A stretch of DNA of 64,000 nt from positions 106,299 through 170,298 of the forward strand of contig JAPMUG010000008.1 of assembly GCA_026692725.1 (NCBI GenBank), given 5' to 3'. This document shows, one piece after another, positions 8,791 through 64,000 of this stretch. Made by a program: the position numbers and the translations under genes. The notes below the pieces were generated by a model. The model did not search any database. It saw only the letters and a program-made list of their open reading frames with translations, and had not been told where the DNA came from. This DNA is from Ecytonucleospora hepatopenaei. Lineage: Eukaryota > Microsporidia > Enterocytozoonidae. How positions within the stretch are numbered: position 1 is the first letter of the stretch; each line of letters opens with the position of its first letter.

Positions 8791-8864
8791 CGGTGCTGGT
8801 GGGTCTCGAACCCACAACCTCCCGATTAACAGTCGGACGCGCTAACCTATTGCGCCACAGTACC
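8791..8864 (-). tRNA. tRNA-Asn (anticodon GTT)
   Basis: The minus strand folds as a cloverleaf: acceptor GGTACTG with CAGCACC (one A-C mismatch at the fourth pair), D arm GCGC...GCGC, anticodon stem TCCGA/TCGGG with loop CTGTTAA (anticodon GTT), and T arm GTGGG-TTCGAGA-CCCAC. The discriminator base would be the G opposite 8791. No intron. An oligo-T stretch (opposite the A run at 8785-8790) follows as pol III terminator. Confidence 0.93.
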
Positions 8865-23080: not shown

Positions 23081-23124
23081 TAGAGCAGTAAATTTTGTAA
23101 TAATAGTATTGTTGTTATCCTGTT

Positions 23125-23238
23125 ATTTGTATTTGTATTTGTATTTGTATTTGTATTTGTATTTGTATTTGTATTTGTATTTGTATTTGTATTTGTATTT
23201 GTATTTGTATTTGTATTTGTATTTGTATTTGTATTTGT
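23125..23238. repeat. (ATTTGT)19 hexamer microsatellite
   Basis: Nineteen perfect copies of ATTTGT, followed by a decayed copy. It sits between two minus-strand membrane-protein genes, within roughly 240 bases of the ATG of one. All G is on the plus strand and all C on the minus strand. The Tyr-Leu repeat frame it creates on the plus strand is not a gene. Confidence 0.95.
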
Positions 23239-23381
23239 ATTTATATTTAGTAGTTATGTTATTAGAACTTATAATTATTATATATATTACTTAGAATTTA
23301 TAACTTTTTCTATATTTCTTAGAATTTTTAGTTAGTAGATATATTTAGGAGGGAAAAAGGGAATAGTAAAAATTACAAAAT

Positions 23382-55314: not shown

Positions 55315-56139
55315 TTATCTTATTTCATTTATACTTTCACCTAATTCTTTTATAGTTTCAGTATAATATTCATTAGGCATATGAAATAATTCAGGTTTAG
55401 TTTGTTTTGTAGATATATCATATGTACTTATTTTACTCATATGTTTATTCTTAATTTCATTACTATTCTTATGTAAATCTTTATAGTTATAATCATTATT
55501 AGTGTTATTAGTATAATTATAATTATTGGTATAATTGTTATTTTTTATAGTATTAAATTTATTTTTATTTATATTATTATCATCATCACTACTTATCCAA
55601 TATTCTATTTTATCTATATTATTTTTACTTTTATTATATAAAATAGTGTTATTTTTATTGTTTTTCTTTTTAGTAAGTAATAAATTAATTTTATTAGACA
55701 ATCTCTTACCTTTCTTTATTTTAGCAACAGTATTTTTAATTTTTTTATTTTTTAATAATTCTGGTTTAACATATGTTTCAATATTAACATCATCATATTT
55801 ATCTGTATTATTTATGTTATTCTTTTTCTTTTTTATAACAACACATATTATGATAATAATAGTAATTATTATGATACTAAATAATATACTTAATAATATT
55901 TTAGTTTTTTTACTAATAAACTTACTACTCTTATTATTAGTATTATTAGTATTATTAGTATTATTAGTATTATTAGTATTATTAGTATTATTAGTATTAT
56001 TAGTATTATTAGTATTATTAGTATTATTAGTATTATTAGTATTATTAGTATTATTATCATTGATATTGTTTGTATCATTATTTATTGTATTTATATTATC
56101 ATCAATAACATATTCATCATTACTGTTACTGTTTGTCAT
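55315..56139 (-). CDS. Asn/Thr-repeat single-pass membrane protein, 274 aa
   Basis: After an acidic start the protein has about 13 TNN/NTN repeats (NNTNNTNNTNN), encoded by a 9-bp DNA repeat at 55932-56048, then KSSKFISKKTKILLSILFSI continuing into a transmembrane helix (IIIITIIIIICVVI) and a Lys-rich cytosolic part. The C-terminal end PELFHMPNEYYTETIKELGE is less repetitive and could be conserved. Same layout as the small protein at 54132-54470. No family assigned. Confidence 0.48.
   Translation of the reverse strand: MTNSNSNDEYVIDDNINTINNDTNNINDNNTNNTNNTNNTNNTNNTNNTNNTNNTNNTNNTNNTNNTNNKSSKFISKKTKILLSILFSIIIITIIIIICVVIKKKKNNINNTDKYDDVNIETYVKPELLKNKKIKNTVAKIKKGKRLSNKINLLLTKKKNNKNNTILYNKSKNNIDKIEYWISSDDDNNINKNKFNTIKNNNYTNNYNYTNNTNNDYNYKDLHKNSNEIKNKHMSKISTYDISTKQTKPELFHMPNEYYTETIKELGESINEIR
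55932..56048. repeat. 9-bp tandem repeat, 13 copies (TATTATTAG)
   Basis: Thirteen perfect copies of TATTATTAG in the coding region of the Asn/Thr-rich membrane protein. Being a multiple of three, copy number can change without shifting frame, giving variable-length TNN repeats. Confidence 0.9.
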
Positions 56140-56242
56140 CTTATACTATAAATATGTTTAAACTATATAAAATACTAACTATTTAAACTTAAATAAATAT
56201 TAACAAAAGTATATGTATATATATAAATAACTGTATATTAAT

Positions 56243-56306
56243 AAACGTATTACACTTTAACACTAATTTAAATAAAACGTATTACACTTTAACACTAATT
56301 TAAATA
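56243..56306. repeat. 32-bp exact tandem duplication
   Basis: The 32-base unit beginning AAACGTATTACACTTTAACA occurs at 56243-56274 and again at 56275-56306 without a mismatch visible to me. It lies in the spacer 56140-56489, which otherwise holds only A/T low complexity. Confidence 0.85.
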
Positions 56307-56489
56307 TAGTAGGGTATATTAAATAAAAATATTATATAATTTAATAAAGTAAAAAAGATAAATAATTTATCAATAAATATTAACCTTATAAAATACACTA
56401 TACAACAATATAATAATATAACAATATAATAATGCAGTATATAATATAAAAAATATTTATTATATAGTATATAATATCGTTGTAACAAT

Positions 56490-57104
56490 TCAATATAATA
56501 TAAAATTAATCTTACTCCTTCCTATAGGTAACATATTATAATTATAAAAATGATAATATAGTTTACCAGTACCATGTAAAAAAGGATATTTATCTATAAT
56601 GTGTATATCATTACCAGCAATATTAAGGACATCAAACATATCAACACCCATGGATTTACAAAAAGTAAAAGCATCATCAAGTATTTGTATGTTATTAGTA
56701 TTATTAGTATTATTACCTATATTATGATATTGTAATATTGCTTTTTTAATATATTTACTATTATTATCATATAAAATAGTATTATTACTATTATTACTAT
56801 TATTACTGTTTATATTGTTATTATCATATAAATCAGTATTATTAGTATCATATAACTTATTATCAATATACATTATATAAAATGTAATAAATGTACCTTC
56901 CTGTTTATTTATTAATGTATAATTAAAGTTATCAATAATTTTAAAATTATCTCTTAATGCATCAATATCATTAAATACTTCATATAGTTGTATATTACAT
57001 ACATTACATTGATTATATTTAAGTAATAGTTGATTAATATAAATAAAATCATTATCATCATCATTATTGATTAATCTAGTATTACTATTATAATATATTA
57101 CTAT
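56490..57104 (-). pseudogene. NMT1: N-myristoyltransferase, C-terminal part (other frame)
   Basis: This frame is open from 57104 down to the stop at 56490, without a needed ATG. It contains RDNFKIIDNFNYTLINKQEG with TFITFYIMYID (ITDFxSFYxLPS in NMT), then FTFCKSMGVDMFDVLNIAGN (AK-x-x-GFDVFNALD-x-M-x-N) and FLHGTGKLYYHFYNYN (FG-x-GDG-x-L-xYYLYNW), ending SKINFILY where NMT ends near GLVLQ. Together with the next entry it covers most of NMT. Asn-rich inserts interrupt it. Confidence 0.72.
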
Positions 57105-57120
57105 TTATTATATATACTAT

Positions 57121-57987
57121 TTAATATATTACTATTAATATACTACTATTTAATATATTATCATTATATATAGTATTAGTACTATTTATATAATCATATG
57201 GTATATATATTAATTTTCTTAATCTATTTATATTAAGTATATAATGATAATATTCTACTTCAGTAAATGCAAAACCTAAATTACGTTCACCAGTAAATAT
57301 AGCAGTATAAATACCATTGATATATGCATTTCTCTTTATTTCATTAATGAGCATGGGTGCAATATTATTATGTCTCATATGTTTACTAACACATAGAAAG
57401 TTAACACTGAGAATATCACTATATAATATATTATCATTATATACTGTATCATTATATAATACATTACCATTATTATTACTATTATTATATATAGAATGTA
57501 CTTTACCAAATACATAACCAATTAATTCTAATTTATTATCATTATATACTGTATTATCATTATATAATATATTAGTATTAGTATTATTACTATTATTAAT
57601 ATATAATCCTATTGAATAACATTCTTTATGTCTCTTACTATTAAATAACATATTAAACATATCATATGTAAATATAAATTTATAATTATCACTACTATTA
57701 GTATTATGTGTATTATGTATATTATGTGTATTATAATAATTATTGTTTAAAAATGTAATAATAATATTAATATCACTAATATATTTAAATATATAATTAG
57801 TATTATTATATGTATTATATGTATTATTTAATTGGTGTATTATATCATTATTAACATGTTGTATGATATTAGTATTATTAGTATTATTAGTATTATTATT
57901 GTTATTGGTATTATTGTTATTGGTATTAGTATTATTGTTATTACCTATATTACTAACTGGTTGTGTTTCCCAATATCTTTTTTTCAT
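57121..57987 (-). CDS. NMT1: N-myristoyltransferase, N-terminal part
   Basis: ATG at 57987. MKKRYWETQPVS matches the NMT start (FWDTQPV). Conserved blocks follow: KLELIGYVFGKVHSIY (LVGFIxAIPA), SVNFLCVSKHMRHNNIAPML ([20 protein letters not shown]), and RNAYINGIYTAIFTGERNL with YYHYILNINRLRKLIYIPY (TCRYWHRSLNPRKLIEV). The enzyme attaches myristate to N-terminal Gly of proteins such as Arf GTPases. Asn repeats are inserted between blocks. The frame stops at 57121 in an AT repeat; the C-terminal half continues in another frame from 57104. Confidence 0.82.
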   Translation of the reverse strand: MKKRYWETQPVSNIGNNNNTNTNNNNTNNNNNTNNTNNTNIIQHVNNDIIHQLNNTYNTYNNTNYIFKYISDINIIITFLNNNYYNTHNIHNTHNTNSSDNYKFIFTYDMFNMLFNSKRHKECYSIGLYINNSNNTNTNILYNDNTVYNDNKLELIGYVFGKVHSIYNNSNNNGNVLYNDTVYNDNILYSDILSVNFLCVSKHMRHNNIAPMLINEIKRNAYINGIYTAIFTGERNLGFAFTEVEYYHYILNINRLRKLIYIPYDYINSTNTIYNDNILNSSILIVIY

Positions 57988-58037
57988 TATATTATTATAT
58001 TATTATATTATACTAATATATTATTATACTAATATAT

Positions 58038-58226
58038 TATAAACTATAAACTATAAACTATAAACTATAAACTATAAACTATAAACTATAAACTATAAAC
58101 TATAAACTATAAACTATAAACTATAAACTATAAACTATAAACTATAAACTATAAACTATAAACTATAAACTATAAACTATAAACTATAAACTATAAACTA
58201 TAAACTATAAACTATAAACTATAAAC
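58038..58226. repeat. (TATAAAC)27 heptamer array
   Basis: Twenty-seven perfect copies of a 7-base unit directly upstream of the NMT gene ATG, between NMT and the TPR gene. All C is on the plus strand. No coding or RNA function seen; copy number is likely variable. Confidence 0.95.
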
Positions 58227-58282
58227 TATATAAAATATTATACTAATATATATGGGTAATATTTTATTTATATTATATTATA

Positions 58283-58489
58283 TTATATATTACTATTTGA
58301 CTTATTTATATCTTCTATATATTTCTTTATTCTCTCTATATTCCTATCACATGTACTATTACTAATATATTTATTATATGCATCAATAGCATTATTAGAG
58401 TCATTCATCTTTTTATATAATTCAGCTAAATATAACCATGCATCACATGATGTATTATTACATATATTACTATTATATAAATTATATAA
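58283..58489 (-). pseudogene. TPR protein, C-terminal frame fragment
   Basis: Open from 58489 to the stop at 58283-58285: SCDAWLYLAELYKKMNDSNN then AIDAYNKYISNSTCDRN and a final helix (IERIKKYIEDINKS). This is a clean tetratricopeptide repeat (W-x-x-LA-x-L-Y-x-x-x-x-x-x-x-A-x-x-x-Y-x-K-x-I) plus capping helix. It overlaps the end of the middle fragment by 8 bases (58482-58489), so one base shift joins them. Confidence 0.55.
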
Positions 58490-59168
58490 TTATATAATTA
58501 TATATATTACATATATTAGTATTATTACATATATTACATATATTGGTATTATTACATATATTACATATATTGGTATTATTACATATTGTACTACTCTTTA
58601 TAAATGATTCTATTGCTATATCATATATATTATATTTATAATATATTCTACCTAATAATTTATATGTATTACTAATAATACAACAATTACCATTATATAT
58701 ATTACCATTATAATATATTATCTTATGTAATATATACTGTGATATATTATATTTATTATGTATATATAAGTTATATGCTATATCATATAATATATATAAT
58801 ACTATATTATGTATATTATGTATATTATGTATATTATGTATATTATGTATATTATTACATATACTATATAATACCTTATTATAATATATTACACTATTAT
58901 TCATATATGATATATTATTATGCTTATTATATTTTATATTATAACACTTACTAATTATCATATATATTATATATATTATAATATTACTATTATCAATATA
59001 TGATATATTATCAATATTATTATATTTTATTATATTCTTTAATAATATTATACATTCATCTATTTTATTATCATACATATATAATATACTATTTATTAAT
59101 GATATTCTAATATTATATGTATATGTATTATATATATGTATTATATGTATTATATGTATATGTATATA
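58482..59168 (-). pseudogene. TPR protein, middle frame fragment
   Basis: The frame is open from 59168 (no ATG needed; the first ATG is 59078) to 58482. The upstream part reads NIRISLINSILYMYDNKIDE, continuing CIILLKNII, then TPR-like helices (KLLGRIYYKYNIYDIAIESF near the end) and repeats HNIHNIHNIHN and NNTNICNICNN from simple DNA repeats. It overlaps the N-terminal fragment over 59150-59168. With the neighbouring fragments it forms one TPR gene, possibly an APC/C subunit. Confidence 0.52.
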
Positions 59169-60253
59169 TTATATATATTTAATATTTTATTATATTTTAT
59201 ATCATTAGTTATACTTGTATCATTTACTATATTTAATATATAATATTCAATAGGTATAATATATAATATACTATTTAATATATTACTATTATATGTATAT
59301 GTATTATTTATACTATTATATGTATATGTATTATTTATACTATTATATGTATATGTATCATTTATACTATTATATGTATTTATTATATATTCATATATCT
59401 TTATATTATTATATAATATATTACTATCATTACATATATACAACATATAGATATATAATTTAATATCATCATTTAATATATCATCATTTATTATATTATT
59501 AATACTATCACTATTATTATATATATTTAATATATCTACTATTATATATATTAGTTCATACATATTATTATATTTATATAATATATTAATATAACAATCT
59601 ATAGCTATATTATATTTATTACATAATATATTGTTATTGTTATTATTATATAATATATTGTTATTGTTATTAGTATTATTATTGTTATTATTATATAATA
59701 TATTGTTATTGTTATTGTTATTATATAATATTATTATACCATATATATAATTATATAATATATTAGTATTATTAGTAGTATTATTAGTATTATATTTTAT
59801 ATTATAGTTATTATTATATATTACATTATAATCATTATGTATACTATTATATATTGTATCATATAATATATTAGTAGTATTAGTAGTATTACTATTAGTG
59901 TTACTATCAGTAGTATTACTCTTTATTATACTATCATATAATATCTTATGTATTATCTTTGCTTTTATTATCTTCATTTCCATATTACAACATGTTTCAT
60001 TTGAACATGTTAAGCTTATACATGATAAACATTTTATTGCTTTATTATATTGTTTAGTATAATATAAATATATTATATAATTGATATTAGTATTATTGGT
60101 ATTATTGTCATTATATAATGTATTAGTAGTATTTAATATATTTTCTTTATATAACTTATAATCATATACACTATCATTAGTATTATTTGATAGTAATATT
60201 TCTATTGTTTCTATAAAATTATACTTTATATATACATCTATATTATCAATCAT
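59150..60253 (-). CDS. TPR protein, N-terminal part (possible Cdc16/Cdc23-type APC/C subunit)
   Basis: ATG at 60253. 367 residues with Asn/Tyr-rich repeats between TPR-like helices: IIYLYYTKQYNKAIKCLSCI (A-helix/B-helix with Y-x-x-x-x-Y-x-x-AI) and YIYGIIILYNN ... YNIAIDCYINILYKYNNMYE. The block order and the Cys-rich stretch (CNMEMKIIKAKIIHKI) recall Cdc16/Cdc23 subunits of the anaphase-promoting complex, but the subunit cannot be fixed. It ends at 59150 in an ATACAT repeat tract, where the next frame fragment takes over. Confidence 0.55.
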   Translation of the reverse strand: MIDNIDVYIKYNFIETIEILLSNNTNDSVYDYKLYKENILNTTNTLYNDNNTNNTNINYIIYLYYTKQYNKAIKCLSCISLTCSNETCCNMEMKIIKAKIIHKILYDSIIKSNTTDSNTNSNTTNTTNILYDTIYNSIHNDYNVIYNNNYNIKYNTNNTTNNTNILYNYIYGIIILYNNNNNNNILYNNNNNNTNNNNNILYNNNNNNILCNKYNIAIDCYINILYKYNNMYELIYIIVDILNIYNNSDSINNIINDDILNDDIKLYIYMLYICNDSNILYNNIKIYEYIINTYNSINDTYTYNSINNTYTYNSINNTYTYNSNILNSILYIIPIEYYILNIVNDTSITNDIKYNKILNIYNIYIYI

Positions 60254-62547
60254 TATAATATTATATTATTATATTGTATTAAAATATATTGTATTATTAT
60301 AATATGTTAATTTGTTATAAAATATAGTTATATATTGTGTTATATTATTGTGTTATATTACTATAATGTATTGTAGTTTTATATAAAAATATAAGGATAA
60401 AAAATATTATAAATAAAAATATAACATTATATAATTACAATAATATTATATGTTATAGTAGTGTTAAGAATATATTAAATATGATTTATATAAAAACATT
60501 ATTAATGTAAATAAAATAAGGAAAAAATTAAAAAAATTAATATTTTTTAAATAAATCATAATGTTTAGAATGTAAGGTATAAAAATAGATAAAATAGTAT
60601 TATATAAGGAAATAAAAATAGTTTAATATTTATAGCTATACAAAAAAACATATATATATTTATTATTTTACTTTAAACTAGATCATTATAAGATTATATA
60701 ACCTTAAAAATTTAAAAACTTTTAAAAAACAAAAATAATATATTATACAATAGTTATAAAATAATAAATTAAAAATACTACTACTATTTATATATTATAA
60801 GGAAATATTATTAATATTATTAAACAATATAATAAAAGAAAAACAAAATATAATATTTATATTAAGAAGTAGTAGTATTTATAGGTATAAAAATAATTTT
60901 AAGAATTTAAAACAATAATTTTTATATATAACTAAAGTAAAATATTTTAATTCTTTAAAAAATATAGATATATAATATATAATAATATTAAAAGAAGTAA
61001 AAAAGTAATTTTATTTTATAACATAAGAAAAGGATAAGGTTAATATAAAAAGTAAAAATTTAAAATAATAACAAATATATAAAACTATTTTTATTATTAT
61101 ATAGTATAATTAAGGAACAAAAATAAGTATATGCTATAATCCCTTCCTTTTGAGCTTTCATGAATTTGATTTAAATAATTTCTTGCTGTGAATTGCTACG
61201 TAGCGCTTTTGTTTACACAGTAGGCGGAAGGTCTTGAAGTGCTTGTTGTCGACGTGCCTCTTTCTGTTCAAGAGTGTCTAAATAATCAGTATACACTTTG
61301 GTAATGTATTAGTATAAGAATGTCACATTGTAATAAAGTTTAATAAAATAAAAATTAAGGTTTAAAACATTTCTAATTTTAAATATCTACTCTACATTTT
61401 CGATGGCATAAGCCAGCTTAAGACACTAATTTAAATATAAATATAAACTAAAATAAATATTAATATATATAATTTAGTAGTAGCTAACAATAATAACAAA
61501 TTTAAAATAGTATTACTACTTAACTATTATAAACTATTAAGGAATACACAACTATACTATATATTAACTACTAAAAACATTTTATATGTTTTATAAATAA
61601 ATTGTATAATAAATTAAATTATTTGTGTATATTATATATTAGTAGTATAAAGATATTTTATGTTAAAATAATTTGAAAAATAAAATATAATAGAAATAAA
61701 AAACACGTAGGTAATAAAGGAAAAGAAAAAAGATGAAATAAAAGTATATATAGAATGCAATGATATTGAAAATTGAATAGTTTTAGGTAGATGTATTTTT
61801 CAATTTTTTGTATTTGTGAGTATACCCTTTAGTTTAAATATTAGTAAACTTATTAGTATTTATTTTTTAACCCTTATAGTAAAATAGAATAAAACTAAAA
61901 TATAAATAAAATAATAGTAAAATCATAATTTAAATGTATTGTTATAAGTGTAAAACTTAATATAAATGATAGTAAATAAATTATAAGAATAAAAAATACA
62001 TTATTTTAGAATTTATTATTAAATAAATTCATATTTTAAGAAATTTAGAAAAAATTAAAGAAATATTCTTATAGAATATAAGTATAAGTATGAATGATAA
62101 AGTTAATATGTATTTAAATAGTAGTAATAGTAATAATAAAATGGTGTAATAAATATTTATATGTTTTTATTAAATAAATTATAAAAATATATACATTTAT
62201 TAGGGAAATATTATAAAATTTATAAAAAAATAAAAATATTTTAAAAGATAATATAATTTAAAAGAAAAACAATGAGAGTATTAAATAAAAAAGAAATAAA
62301 GAAAAAAAAATTAAAAAACTAAACTAATACTTAAGTATATTTACATATAAAAAATATAAAACTATTAATAAGTTTATTAACCTAATAATAAAATGATAAA
62401 AACAATAGAAATAACAAACGAAAAAATTACAAAAAGTTTAATTTAAGTTAATAGTACATAAAAAACATTTTAACACCTTTTTGCGAGTAATAAAAGTATT
62501 CACAAAGAAAAGAAAATACGTGAAAACAAAAATTAGATTATGATTAG
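60254..62547. other. Subtelomeric AT desert with a coding relic
   Basis: About 2.3 kb with no intact gene. Most is poly-A/poly-T and TATA-type low complexity, with loosely repeated motifs such as AAATATTATAAAT and TAAATATAAAATA. The exception is a GC-richer island at about 61130-61430 (see the relic entry). A CCC appears near 61868 without a following long frame. I see no tRNA, rRNA or clear ncRNA elsewhere. Confidence 0.45.
61135..61311 (-). pseudogene. Degenerate protein-coding relic with in-frame stops
   Basis: One minus-strand frame gives protein-like sequence interrupted only by TAA codons: YITKVYTDYLDTLEQKEARR then QQALQDLPPTV, stop (61213-61215), TKALRSNSQQEII, stop, IKFMKAQKEGIIAYT. 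The residues are well balanced (Arg, Gln, Pro, Ala), unlike the Asn/Ile/Lys chance frames around, and the DNA is clearly GC-richer. A third stop lies just upstream (61309-61311). This fits an old copy of a gene or mobile element. A structured RNA is the alternative; a GCTACGTAGC palindrome sits at 61195-61204. Confidence 0.35.
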
Positions 62548-62599
62548 TAGCGCGAGAAAACTTGACGGAGTGTAACGAAGTTAAAGTTTTGGAGCGCTA
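62548..62599. other. Strong hairpin next to the minisatellite
   Basis: The arms TAGCGCGAGAAAACTT (62548-62563) and AAGTTTTGGAGCGCTA (62584-62599) pair at 13 of 16 positions with a 3-base internal loop, around a 20-base loop GACGGAGTGTAACGAAGTTA. It is GC-richer than its surroundings and overlaps the first bases of the minisatellite (GCTA). It could be a transcribed RNA stem, a terminator or the end of an element. Confidence 0.6.
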
Positions 62600-63035
62600 T
62601 TGACTAGATATCTTACCTACGGTAAGCTATTGACTAGATATCTTACCTACGGTAAGCTATTGACTAGATATCTTACCTACGGTAAGCTATTGACTAGATA
62701 TCTTACCTACGGTAAGCTATTGACTAGATATCTTACCTACGGTAAGCTATTGACTAGATATCTTACCTACGGTAAGCTATTGACTAGATATCTTACCTAC
62801 GGTAAGCTATTGACTAGATATCTTACCTACGGTAAGCTATTGACTAGATATCTTACCTACGGTAAGCTATTGACTAGATATCTTACCTACGGTAAGCTAT
62901 TGACTAGATATCTTACCTACGGTAAGCTATTGACTAGATATCTTACCTACGGTAAGCTATTGACTAGATATCTTACCTACGGTAAGCTATTGACTAGATA
63001 TCTTACCTACGGTAAGCTATTGACTAGATATCTTA
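62596..63035. repeat. 30-bp subtelomeric minisatellite, 14 full copies plus 20 bases
   Basis: Fourteen identical copies of a 30-base unit (GCTATTGACTAGATATCTTA followed by CCTACGGTAA) run from 62596 to 63015, and a 15th is cut after 20 bases. Each unit holds two palindromic elements: AGATATCT and CTTACC-TAC-GGTAAG. Identity between copies looks perfect, which suggests recent homogenisation. The open frame it makes (a 10-residue repeat) is a by-product of the 30-base period. Confidence 0.95.
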
Positions 63036-63236
63036 GTTAAGTTAGTTAGTTTAGTAGTTAGTTAGTTAGTTAGTTAAGTTAGTTAGTTAGTTTAGTTTTA
63101 GTTAGTAGTTTAGTTAGTTAGTATAGTTAGTTAGTTTAAGTTAGTTTTTTTAGGTTAGGTTAGTAGTTTAGGTTAGTAGTTAGTTAAGTTTAGTTTAAGT
63201 AGTTAGTTTAGTTTAGTGTTTAGGTTAGTAGTTTAG

Positions 63237-63272
<36 letters not shown>

Positions 63273-63283
63273 AGTTAGTTAGT

Positions 63284-63351
<68 letters not shown>

Positions 63352-63516
63352 AGTTAGTTAGTTTAGTTAGTTAGTTAGTTAGTTTAGTTAGTTAGTTTAG
63401 TTAGTTAGTTAGTTTAGTTAGTTAGTTTAGTTAGTTAGTTTAGTTAGTTAGTTAGTTTAGTTAGTTAGTTAGTTAGTTTAGTTAGTTAGTTAGTTTAGGT
63501 TAGTTAGTTAGTTAGT

Positions 63517-63555
<39 letters not shown>

Positions 63556-63588
63556 AGTTAGTTAGTTTAGTTTAGTTAGTTAGTTAGT

Positions 63589-63619
<31 letters not shown>

Positions 63620-63638
63620 AGTTAGTTAGTTAGTTAGT

Positions 63639-63673
<35 letters not shown>

Positions 63674-63798
63674 AGTTAGTTAGTTTAGTTAGTTAGTTAG
63701 TTTAGTTAGTTTAGTTAGTTTAGTTAGTTAGTTTAGTTAGTTAGTTAGTTTAGTTAGTTTAGTTTAGTTAGTTTAGTTAGTTAGTTTAGTTAGTTAGT

Positions 63799-63853
<55 letters not shown>

Positions 63854-64000
63854 AGTTTAGTTAGTTAGTTAGTTTAGTTAGTTTAGTTAGTTAGTTAGTT
63901 AGGTTAGTTTAGTTTAGTTTAGTTAGTTTAGTTAGTTTAGTTTAGTTAGTTTAGTTAGTTAGTTTAGTTAGTTTTAGTTTAGTTAGTTAGTTAGTTAGTT
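63036..64000 (+). repeat. Telomeric repeat array, TTAG type with TTTAG variants
   Basis: From 63036 to the window end the plus strand consists of TTAG units mixed with TTTAG, and rarely TTTTAG or TTAGG, mainly in the first about 200 bases, where order is more irregular (TTAAG, TTTTTTAGG, AGTGTTTAGG). The G-rich strand points 5' to 3' to the right end, as expected for a chromosome terminus. Nearly all units have a single G. The array directly follows the truncated minisatellite unit. Confidence 0.88.

Follow-up and report, generated by a model that had tools for sequence, protein, structure and literature searches.

Terminal arrays of TTAG and TTTAG units, bordered by a 30-bp repeat, as the probable telomeres of Ecytonucleospora hepatopenaei

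The right end of contig C12 in the Ecytonucleospora hepatopenaei assembly (13 contigs, 3.09 Mb, 26 contig ends) runs out in an array of short units that mostly carry a single G. Is this array a telomere, and if so, how would it be built? The stretch of DNA analysed here, hereafter the window, is 64,000 nucleotides long (C12:106299-170298), and its array reaches the final base of the contig (170298, right end). The species belongs to the family Enterocytozoonidae of the Microsporidia (NCBI taxonomy), and two of two proteins tested are 100% identical to E. hepatopenaei, which bears out the microsporidian origin assumed in an earlier note on this DNA.

Telomeric units with different numbers of G have been published for this phylum. 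TTAGGG is reported for Mitosporidium daphniae, Hamiltosporidium, Binucleata and Gurleya, and TTAGG for Encephalitozoon intestinalis, Ordospora colligata and Vairimorpha necatrix (PMC12449221); as excerpted there, all of these are likewise short telomerase-type repeats, but with two more and one more G per unit, respectively, than in E. hepatopenaei. The TTAG motif itself is already known: it is reported for Glugoides intestinalis (PMC12449221) and Microsporidia sp. MB (PMC13174016), both placed in Enterocytozoonida and both studied from PacBio HiFi assemblies. Two steps of G loss, from TTAGGG to TTAGG to TTAG, have been proposed within the phylum (PMC13174016). The lineage-specific change surmised in the earlier note is thus supported, with TTAG already in print for these two species.

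The 965 bases of the array resolve into 222 T+A+G+ units, of which 151 are TTAG, 50 TTTAG and 21 run-length variants; TTAG and TTTAG account for 854 of the bases, and C is absent. The word TTAG occurs 210 times, whereas 200 base shuffles yield 15.4 on average and never more than 24; TRF finds period 4 across 63033-64000. The array is real. GG had been described as rare and near the internal side, which mostly holds: five of its seven occurrences do lie in the inner 201 bases (63153-63236), but two stand farther out (63498 and 63902). The features at this end of the window are collected in Table 1.

Table 1. Features of the right end of contig C12, in window positions (L and R, left and right contig ends)
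Feature	Position	Strand	Evidence or remarks
Telomere array, TTAG and TTTAG units	63036..64000	+	G-strand 5'->3' toward contig end; TRF and unit counts
30-bp unit array, telomere border	62596..63035	+	14 whole copies plus 20 bases; TRF 14.7 copies, 100%
70-bp block adjoining the 30-mer array on its inner side	62526..62595	+	Identical at 18/19 ends showing the flank; C2R differs at 3 bases
Subtelomeric block common to other ends	61458..62595	+	Sequence comparison among ends
Higher-G+C stretch (up to 38%) in AT-rich subtelomere	61131..61300	.	Its words at C7L, C9L, C11L, C12R

Comparing the terminal 5 kb at every one of the 26 contig ends excludes a peculiarity of the C12 right end. At 19 of them this span holds a TTAG/TTTAG array with its G-strand outward, and 18 ends have the same standard order, in which the 30-bp repeat is followed directly outward by the TTAG array; at the nineteenth (C2L), the stretch linking array and 30-mer reads N. 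Seven ends show no TTAG array in the outer 5 kb. C1L and C4L among them read partly or wholly N, C4R stops within the 30-mer, and C3L, C3R, C8R and C12L have neither 30-mer nor TTAG array in that span. At C6R, clean TTAG is missing directly after the junction.

The array is terminal on C12, its orientation and composition are alike at many ends, it has a common 30-mer border, and the genome holds a TERT gene with a telomerase RNA-binding domain. We are therefore confident that it is the telomere of E. hepatopenaei, to which telomerase adds single-G TTAG and TTTAG units at an end bordered inward by the 30-bp repeat.

The single-G unit dominates genome-wide as it does in the window. In 18 arrays we counted 5,183 TTAG and 2,132 TTTAG units versus 123 TTAGG and 89 TTTAGG, and the mixture is steady at about 70% TTAG and 30% TTTAG. 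Most variant units differ only in the run length of T, A or G, and the inner 250-500 bases are richest in them: units other than TTAG and TTTAG make up 25% of the first 250 bases, 10% of the next 250 and 2-5% at 500 to 2,250 bases; past 2,250 bases, which few arrays exceed, they are 4-15%, and these longer arrays include C2R and C13L, which have foreign stretches inside. TTAGG and TTTAGG units likewise fall from 6.9% in the first 250 bases to 1-3% in most later bins (5.3% in one). With C2R and C13L excluded, 16 clean arrays remain (29,879 bases, 831-2,764 each, median 1,863). They contain a two-tier G-quadruplex motif once in each of two arrays and GGG four times, so the view that such a strand forms no classic G-quadruplexes holds.

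The order of the two units is not random. Among 6,076 units in runs of at least three in the 16 clean arrays, the probability of TTTAG is 0.184 after TTTAG and 0.345 after TTAG. Counted by the number of TTAGs since the last TTTAG (0 to 5), it runs 0.184, 0.287, 0.347, 0.400, 0.456 and 0.348, compared with a flat value of about 0.294 in 200 within-run shuffles; the values after two and four TTAGs differ with z 3.5, and the value at five (63/181) interrupts the rise. After three TTAGs the probability lies above the end's own mean at all 15 ends that offer enough cases, and after none at only 1 of 16. The effect is absent or weak at C9L and C10L (P 0.294 versus 0.211 and 0.368 versus 0.438). A first-order chain does not produce this rise, and pooling arrays of unequal TTTAG share would yield the opposite trend.

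The order thus holds a memory of about four units (about 17 bases). Tentatively, this suggests that the telomerase RNA has a long template of some 13-17 bases, with a single TTTAG slot beside two or three for TTAG, whose register would shift during reading, and not a stuttering one of 6-9 bases. We consider this possible and no better than that; if true, the long template would be a handle for finding the microsporidian telomerase RNA.

At the C12 right end the TTAG array begins after base 20 of the last 30-mer (CTTA, then G). The 30-mer has 463 exact copies genome-wide, and the TTAG array starts at only six of its 30 positions (7, 4, 2, 2, 2 and 1 of the 18 ends). At each of these the final 1-3 bases match the TTAG register. 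With each position counted once, the summed overlap is 11 bases, where random joins would give 4.7 (P about 0.01). This excess of microhomology fits telomerase re-capping of broken 30-mer arrays. Ends with the same junction may, however, copy one event. Farther inward, 61458-62660 or most of it is shared at 88.9-89.8% identity with at least six ends (at least seven other ends have the block), and C11L matches the C12 right subtelomere over 2.7 kb at 98.5%, from window position 60000 on.

Could the TTAG/TTTAG mixture, as distinct from the telomere itself, be a base-calling or consensus artefact of arrays that are in reality uniform? Long-read telomeres are reported to be prone to repeat miscalls (PMC9414165), this assembly contains suspicious-looking GGTG/CACC stretches, and for both relatives the excerpted reports give only TTAG, with TTTAG absent from that on Microsporidia sp. 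MB (PMC12449221, PMC13174016). On the other hand, 405 of the 406 30-mers in the fetched ends are exact and the remaining one lost one C from CC, so random homopolymer error is much lower than the TTTAG share; at three ends the first 50-64 units come in identical order; and the TTTAG order rule seen at most ends is not given by random error, although context-dependent error could give it. We therefore regard an artefactual mixture as unlikely. TTAGG miscalled as TTAG, which the earlier note had raised, is very unlikely given the exact 30-mers and the PacBio HiFi origin of both published TTAG cases. Shared inner units also bear on a different proposal, that the arrays are maintained mainly by recombination between ends and not by telomerase. 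The 30-mer arrays and inner array parts have indeed been copied among ends (in 4 of 120 end pairs the first 39-64 units beyond the junction are the same), and subtelomeric blocks are common to several ends. Past the shared inner parts, however, the ends no longer agree in unit order, as one would expect if the units were newly synthesised and not copied; the longest shared run has a median of 19 units over the 120 pairs versus a simulated mean of 20, and one further pair shares 31 units internally versus a maximum of 26 in 60 simulated pairs. With a TERT gene present as well, maintenance mainly by recombination seems highly improbable, and synthesis by telomerase is the reading we retain.

The earlier note had counted arrays inside chromosomes against a telomere. 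Internal arrays do exist in contigs: C1 has a CTAA array with 30-mers at 17-20 kb, TTAG arrays adjoining GGTG blocks lie on C4 at 9.3-10 kb and 41-41.5 kb, and on C5 telomeres meet head to head at 219-222 kb and at 430-434 kb. Both C5 joins contain ragged turns and GGTG/CACC blocks and have the look of misassembled sequence. The C5 arrays, and perhaps those of C1 and C4 too, would be true interstitial telomeres if chromosomes had fused. The order on C5 (30-mer, outward TTAG, ragged turn, then CTAA) is what one would see in that case, and across three turns (C13L, C2L and C5 near 219.6 kb) the far array is no mirror of the near one, with longest shared runs of 17, 16 and 11 units, so a single molecule folded back on itself does not explain them; at C5 434 kb the right side has no 30-mer in the fetched stretch. 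Yet the C5 joins fall where ragged spacers and GGTG/CACC blocks lie, a block of this type begins abruptly within unique sequence elsewhere (C2 near 9.5 kb), and C2L and C13L terminate in like turns. We judge fusion to be improbable. The C5 joins are probably misassemblies, and C5, the largest contig, may consist of three chromosomes joined in the assembly.

GGTG/CACC low-complexity stretches, from about 0.4 to more than 3 kb, occur in C1, C2, C4 and C5. Blocks of about 1 kb or more beside TTAG arrays were considered as a second telomere type and rejected: they are absent from the outer 5 kb of 23 of the 26 ends, in addition to the abrupt start on C2. Faulty sequencing or assembly probably produced them. 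At the C13L turn, a nanopore adapter sequence scored 23 versus a maximum of 19 in 500 shuffles, a score to be read with the adapter's resemblance to CTAACTAAAC, on a stretch of which its best alignment lies; one of seven other comparisons reached p 0.008.

The predicted telomerase reverse transcriptase gene lies on the same contig as the window, in a frame of 850 aa (C12:72741-75293). It matches PF12009 with E 8.7e-9 and 36.1 bits (cut-off 25), a profile that none of 14 control genomes match, and aligns weakly with human TERT over a part containing VDDF (E about 0.5). The protein is 100% identical over its full length to E. hepatopenaei EHP00_886; protein searches gave no other relative of it, or of EHP00_659 (see below), at E 0.001.

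A telomerase RNA with a CTAA-type template had been proposed as a check; two C-strand word searches (word plus G within 25 bases) and Rfam identified none. The raw hits, mostly array edges, numbered 51 and 35 (several per site) compared with 14 and 14 for reversed-word controls, and those outside arrays were not clearly above control. Ten non-array sites were left, among them C2:94398, C11:157312 and five subtelomeric copies. The site at C7:210043 falls within a 183-aa open frame. At C2:113614 the site is a telomere-like run of 18 bases, placed at the 3' end of a frame (C2:113200-113900) which by eye resembles an IS1595/Merlin-type transposase, and that at C13:25119 lies upstream of a frame resembling a ribosomal protein gene. 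Six of the loci had no Rfam match up to E 1, and none of the ten sites is put forward as telomerase RNA. The higher-G+C stretch of the subtelomere was rejected as well, because CTAACTAAAC in the window is confined to the array and the stretch occurs at just 4 of 26 ends; Rfam gave no match up to E 1 in 56000-64000, this stretch included.

As to end-binding proteins, POT1 (PF02765) has no match in the genome, nor in any of the 14 control genomes. A Myb profile search gave six matches in five frames, three of them over the cut-off, and one control genome (Bacillus subtilis) matched too. Two of the five frames were examined more closely. The one on C10 fits PF15963, a profile that usually marks TFIIIB B''. 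The frame on C7 (C7:102300-104100, 360 aa) has a single Myb domain just over the cut-off and is 100% identical over its full length to E. hepatopenaei EHP00_659. Tbf1 is among its six PDB matches, none of which is better than E 0.046, and its predicted structure (pLDDT 35.7) is unusable. On sequence grounds EHP00_659 is a candidate TTAG-binding protein weakly like Tbf1, a weak lead to the adapted end-binding protein that the earlier note expected.

Taken together, telomerase would add TTAG interspersed with TTTAG beyond the 30-bp tandem repeat, the TERT on C12 and its RNA presumably building the array. Ends that lose sequence might be re-capped within the 30-mer array where 1-3 bases match the TTAG register, and the non-random order could arise from the template or from a realignment step. 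Against this explanation stand the lack of an identified telomerase RNA in the searches above, the seven ends without arrays (three of them uninformative), the internal arrays of C1, C4 and C5, the C6R junction and the one pair sharing 31 units.

Heterogeneous telomere repeats are familiar from Schizosaccharomyces pombe, where unit length varies in one array through template use. E. hepatopenaei resembles it in varying unit length; the sequence, the template and the variable base differ, here mainly the T run. Closer to it, G. intestinalis and Microsporidia sp. MB share the four-base single-G unit at contig or chromosome ends. For the latter, the excerpted text reports telomeres at all chromosome ends, as well as TERT but not CST or shelterin components (PMC13174016). 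Unlike these two species as excerpted, E. hepatopenaei has about 30% TTTAG and a 30-bp border repeat; the telomere neighbours given there are rRNA genes in G. intestinalis and mostly LINE repeats in Microsporidia sp. MB. Encephalitozoon, like E. hepatopenaei, is reported to have telomere-associated repeat elements (PMC12449221).

Judged by title or abstract start, the literature matches listed (few subscription papers, no preprints) included no report on E. hepatopenaei telomeres, and no description of a microsporidian telomerase RNA was found in the same way. As far as our searches show, the E. hepatopenaei case, the steady TTAG/TTTAG mixture, the restricted junctions with microhomology and the non-random unit order are new. 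With one G per unit, TTAG tests the minimum of G for a telomere, and a further species, from Enterocytozoonidae, supports G loss in the clade. Telomerase RNA and end-capping become testable through the defined 30-mer border and the regularity of the unit order. In shrimp farming this parasite is costly, and being able to recognise complete chromosome ends helps in assembling its genome.

Some minor observations were made alongside. Five near-identical subtelomeric copies (C5:802307, C10:7373, C10:189371, C11:163905 and C13:155545), some 7-10 kb from contig ends, each contain CTAACTAAACTAAAAAAAGG. The window holds three near-perfect microsatellites: TATAAAC (27.6 copies, 100%) at 58038-58230, TATTATTAG (13.9 copies, 100%) at 55932-56056 within an Asn/Thr-rich open frame, and TATTTG (20.8 copies, 99%) at 23124-23248. 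Rfam also placed a 5S rRNA on the forward strand at 1154-1273 and a tRNA on the reverse strand at 8791-8864.
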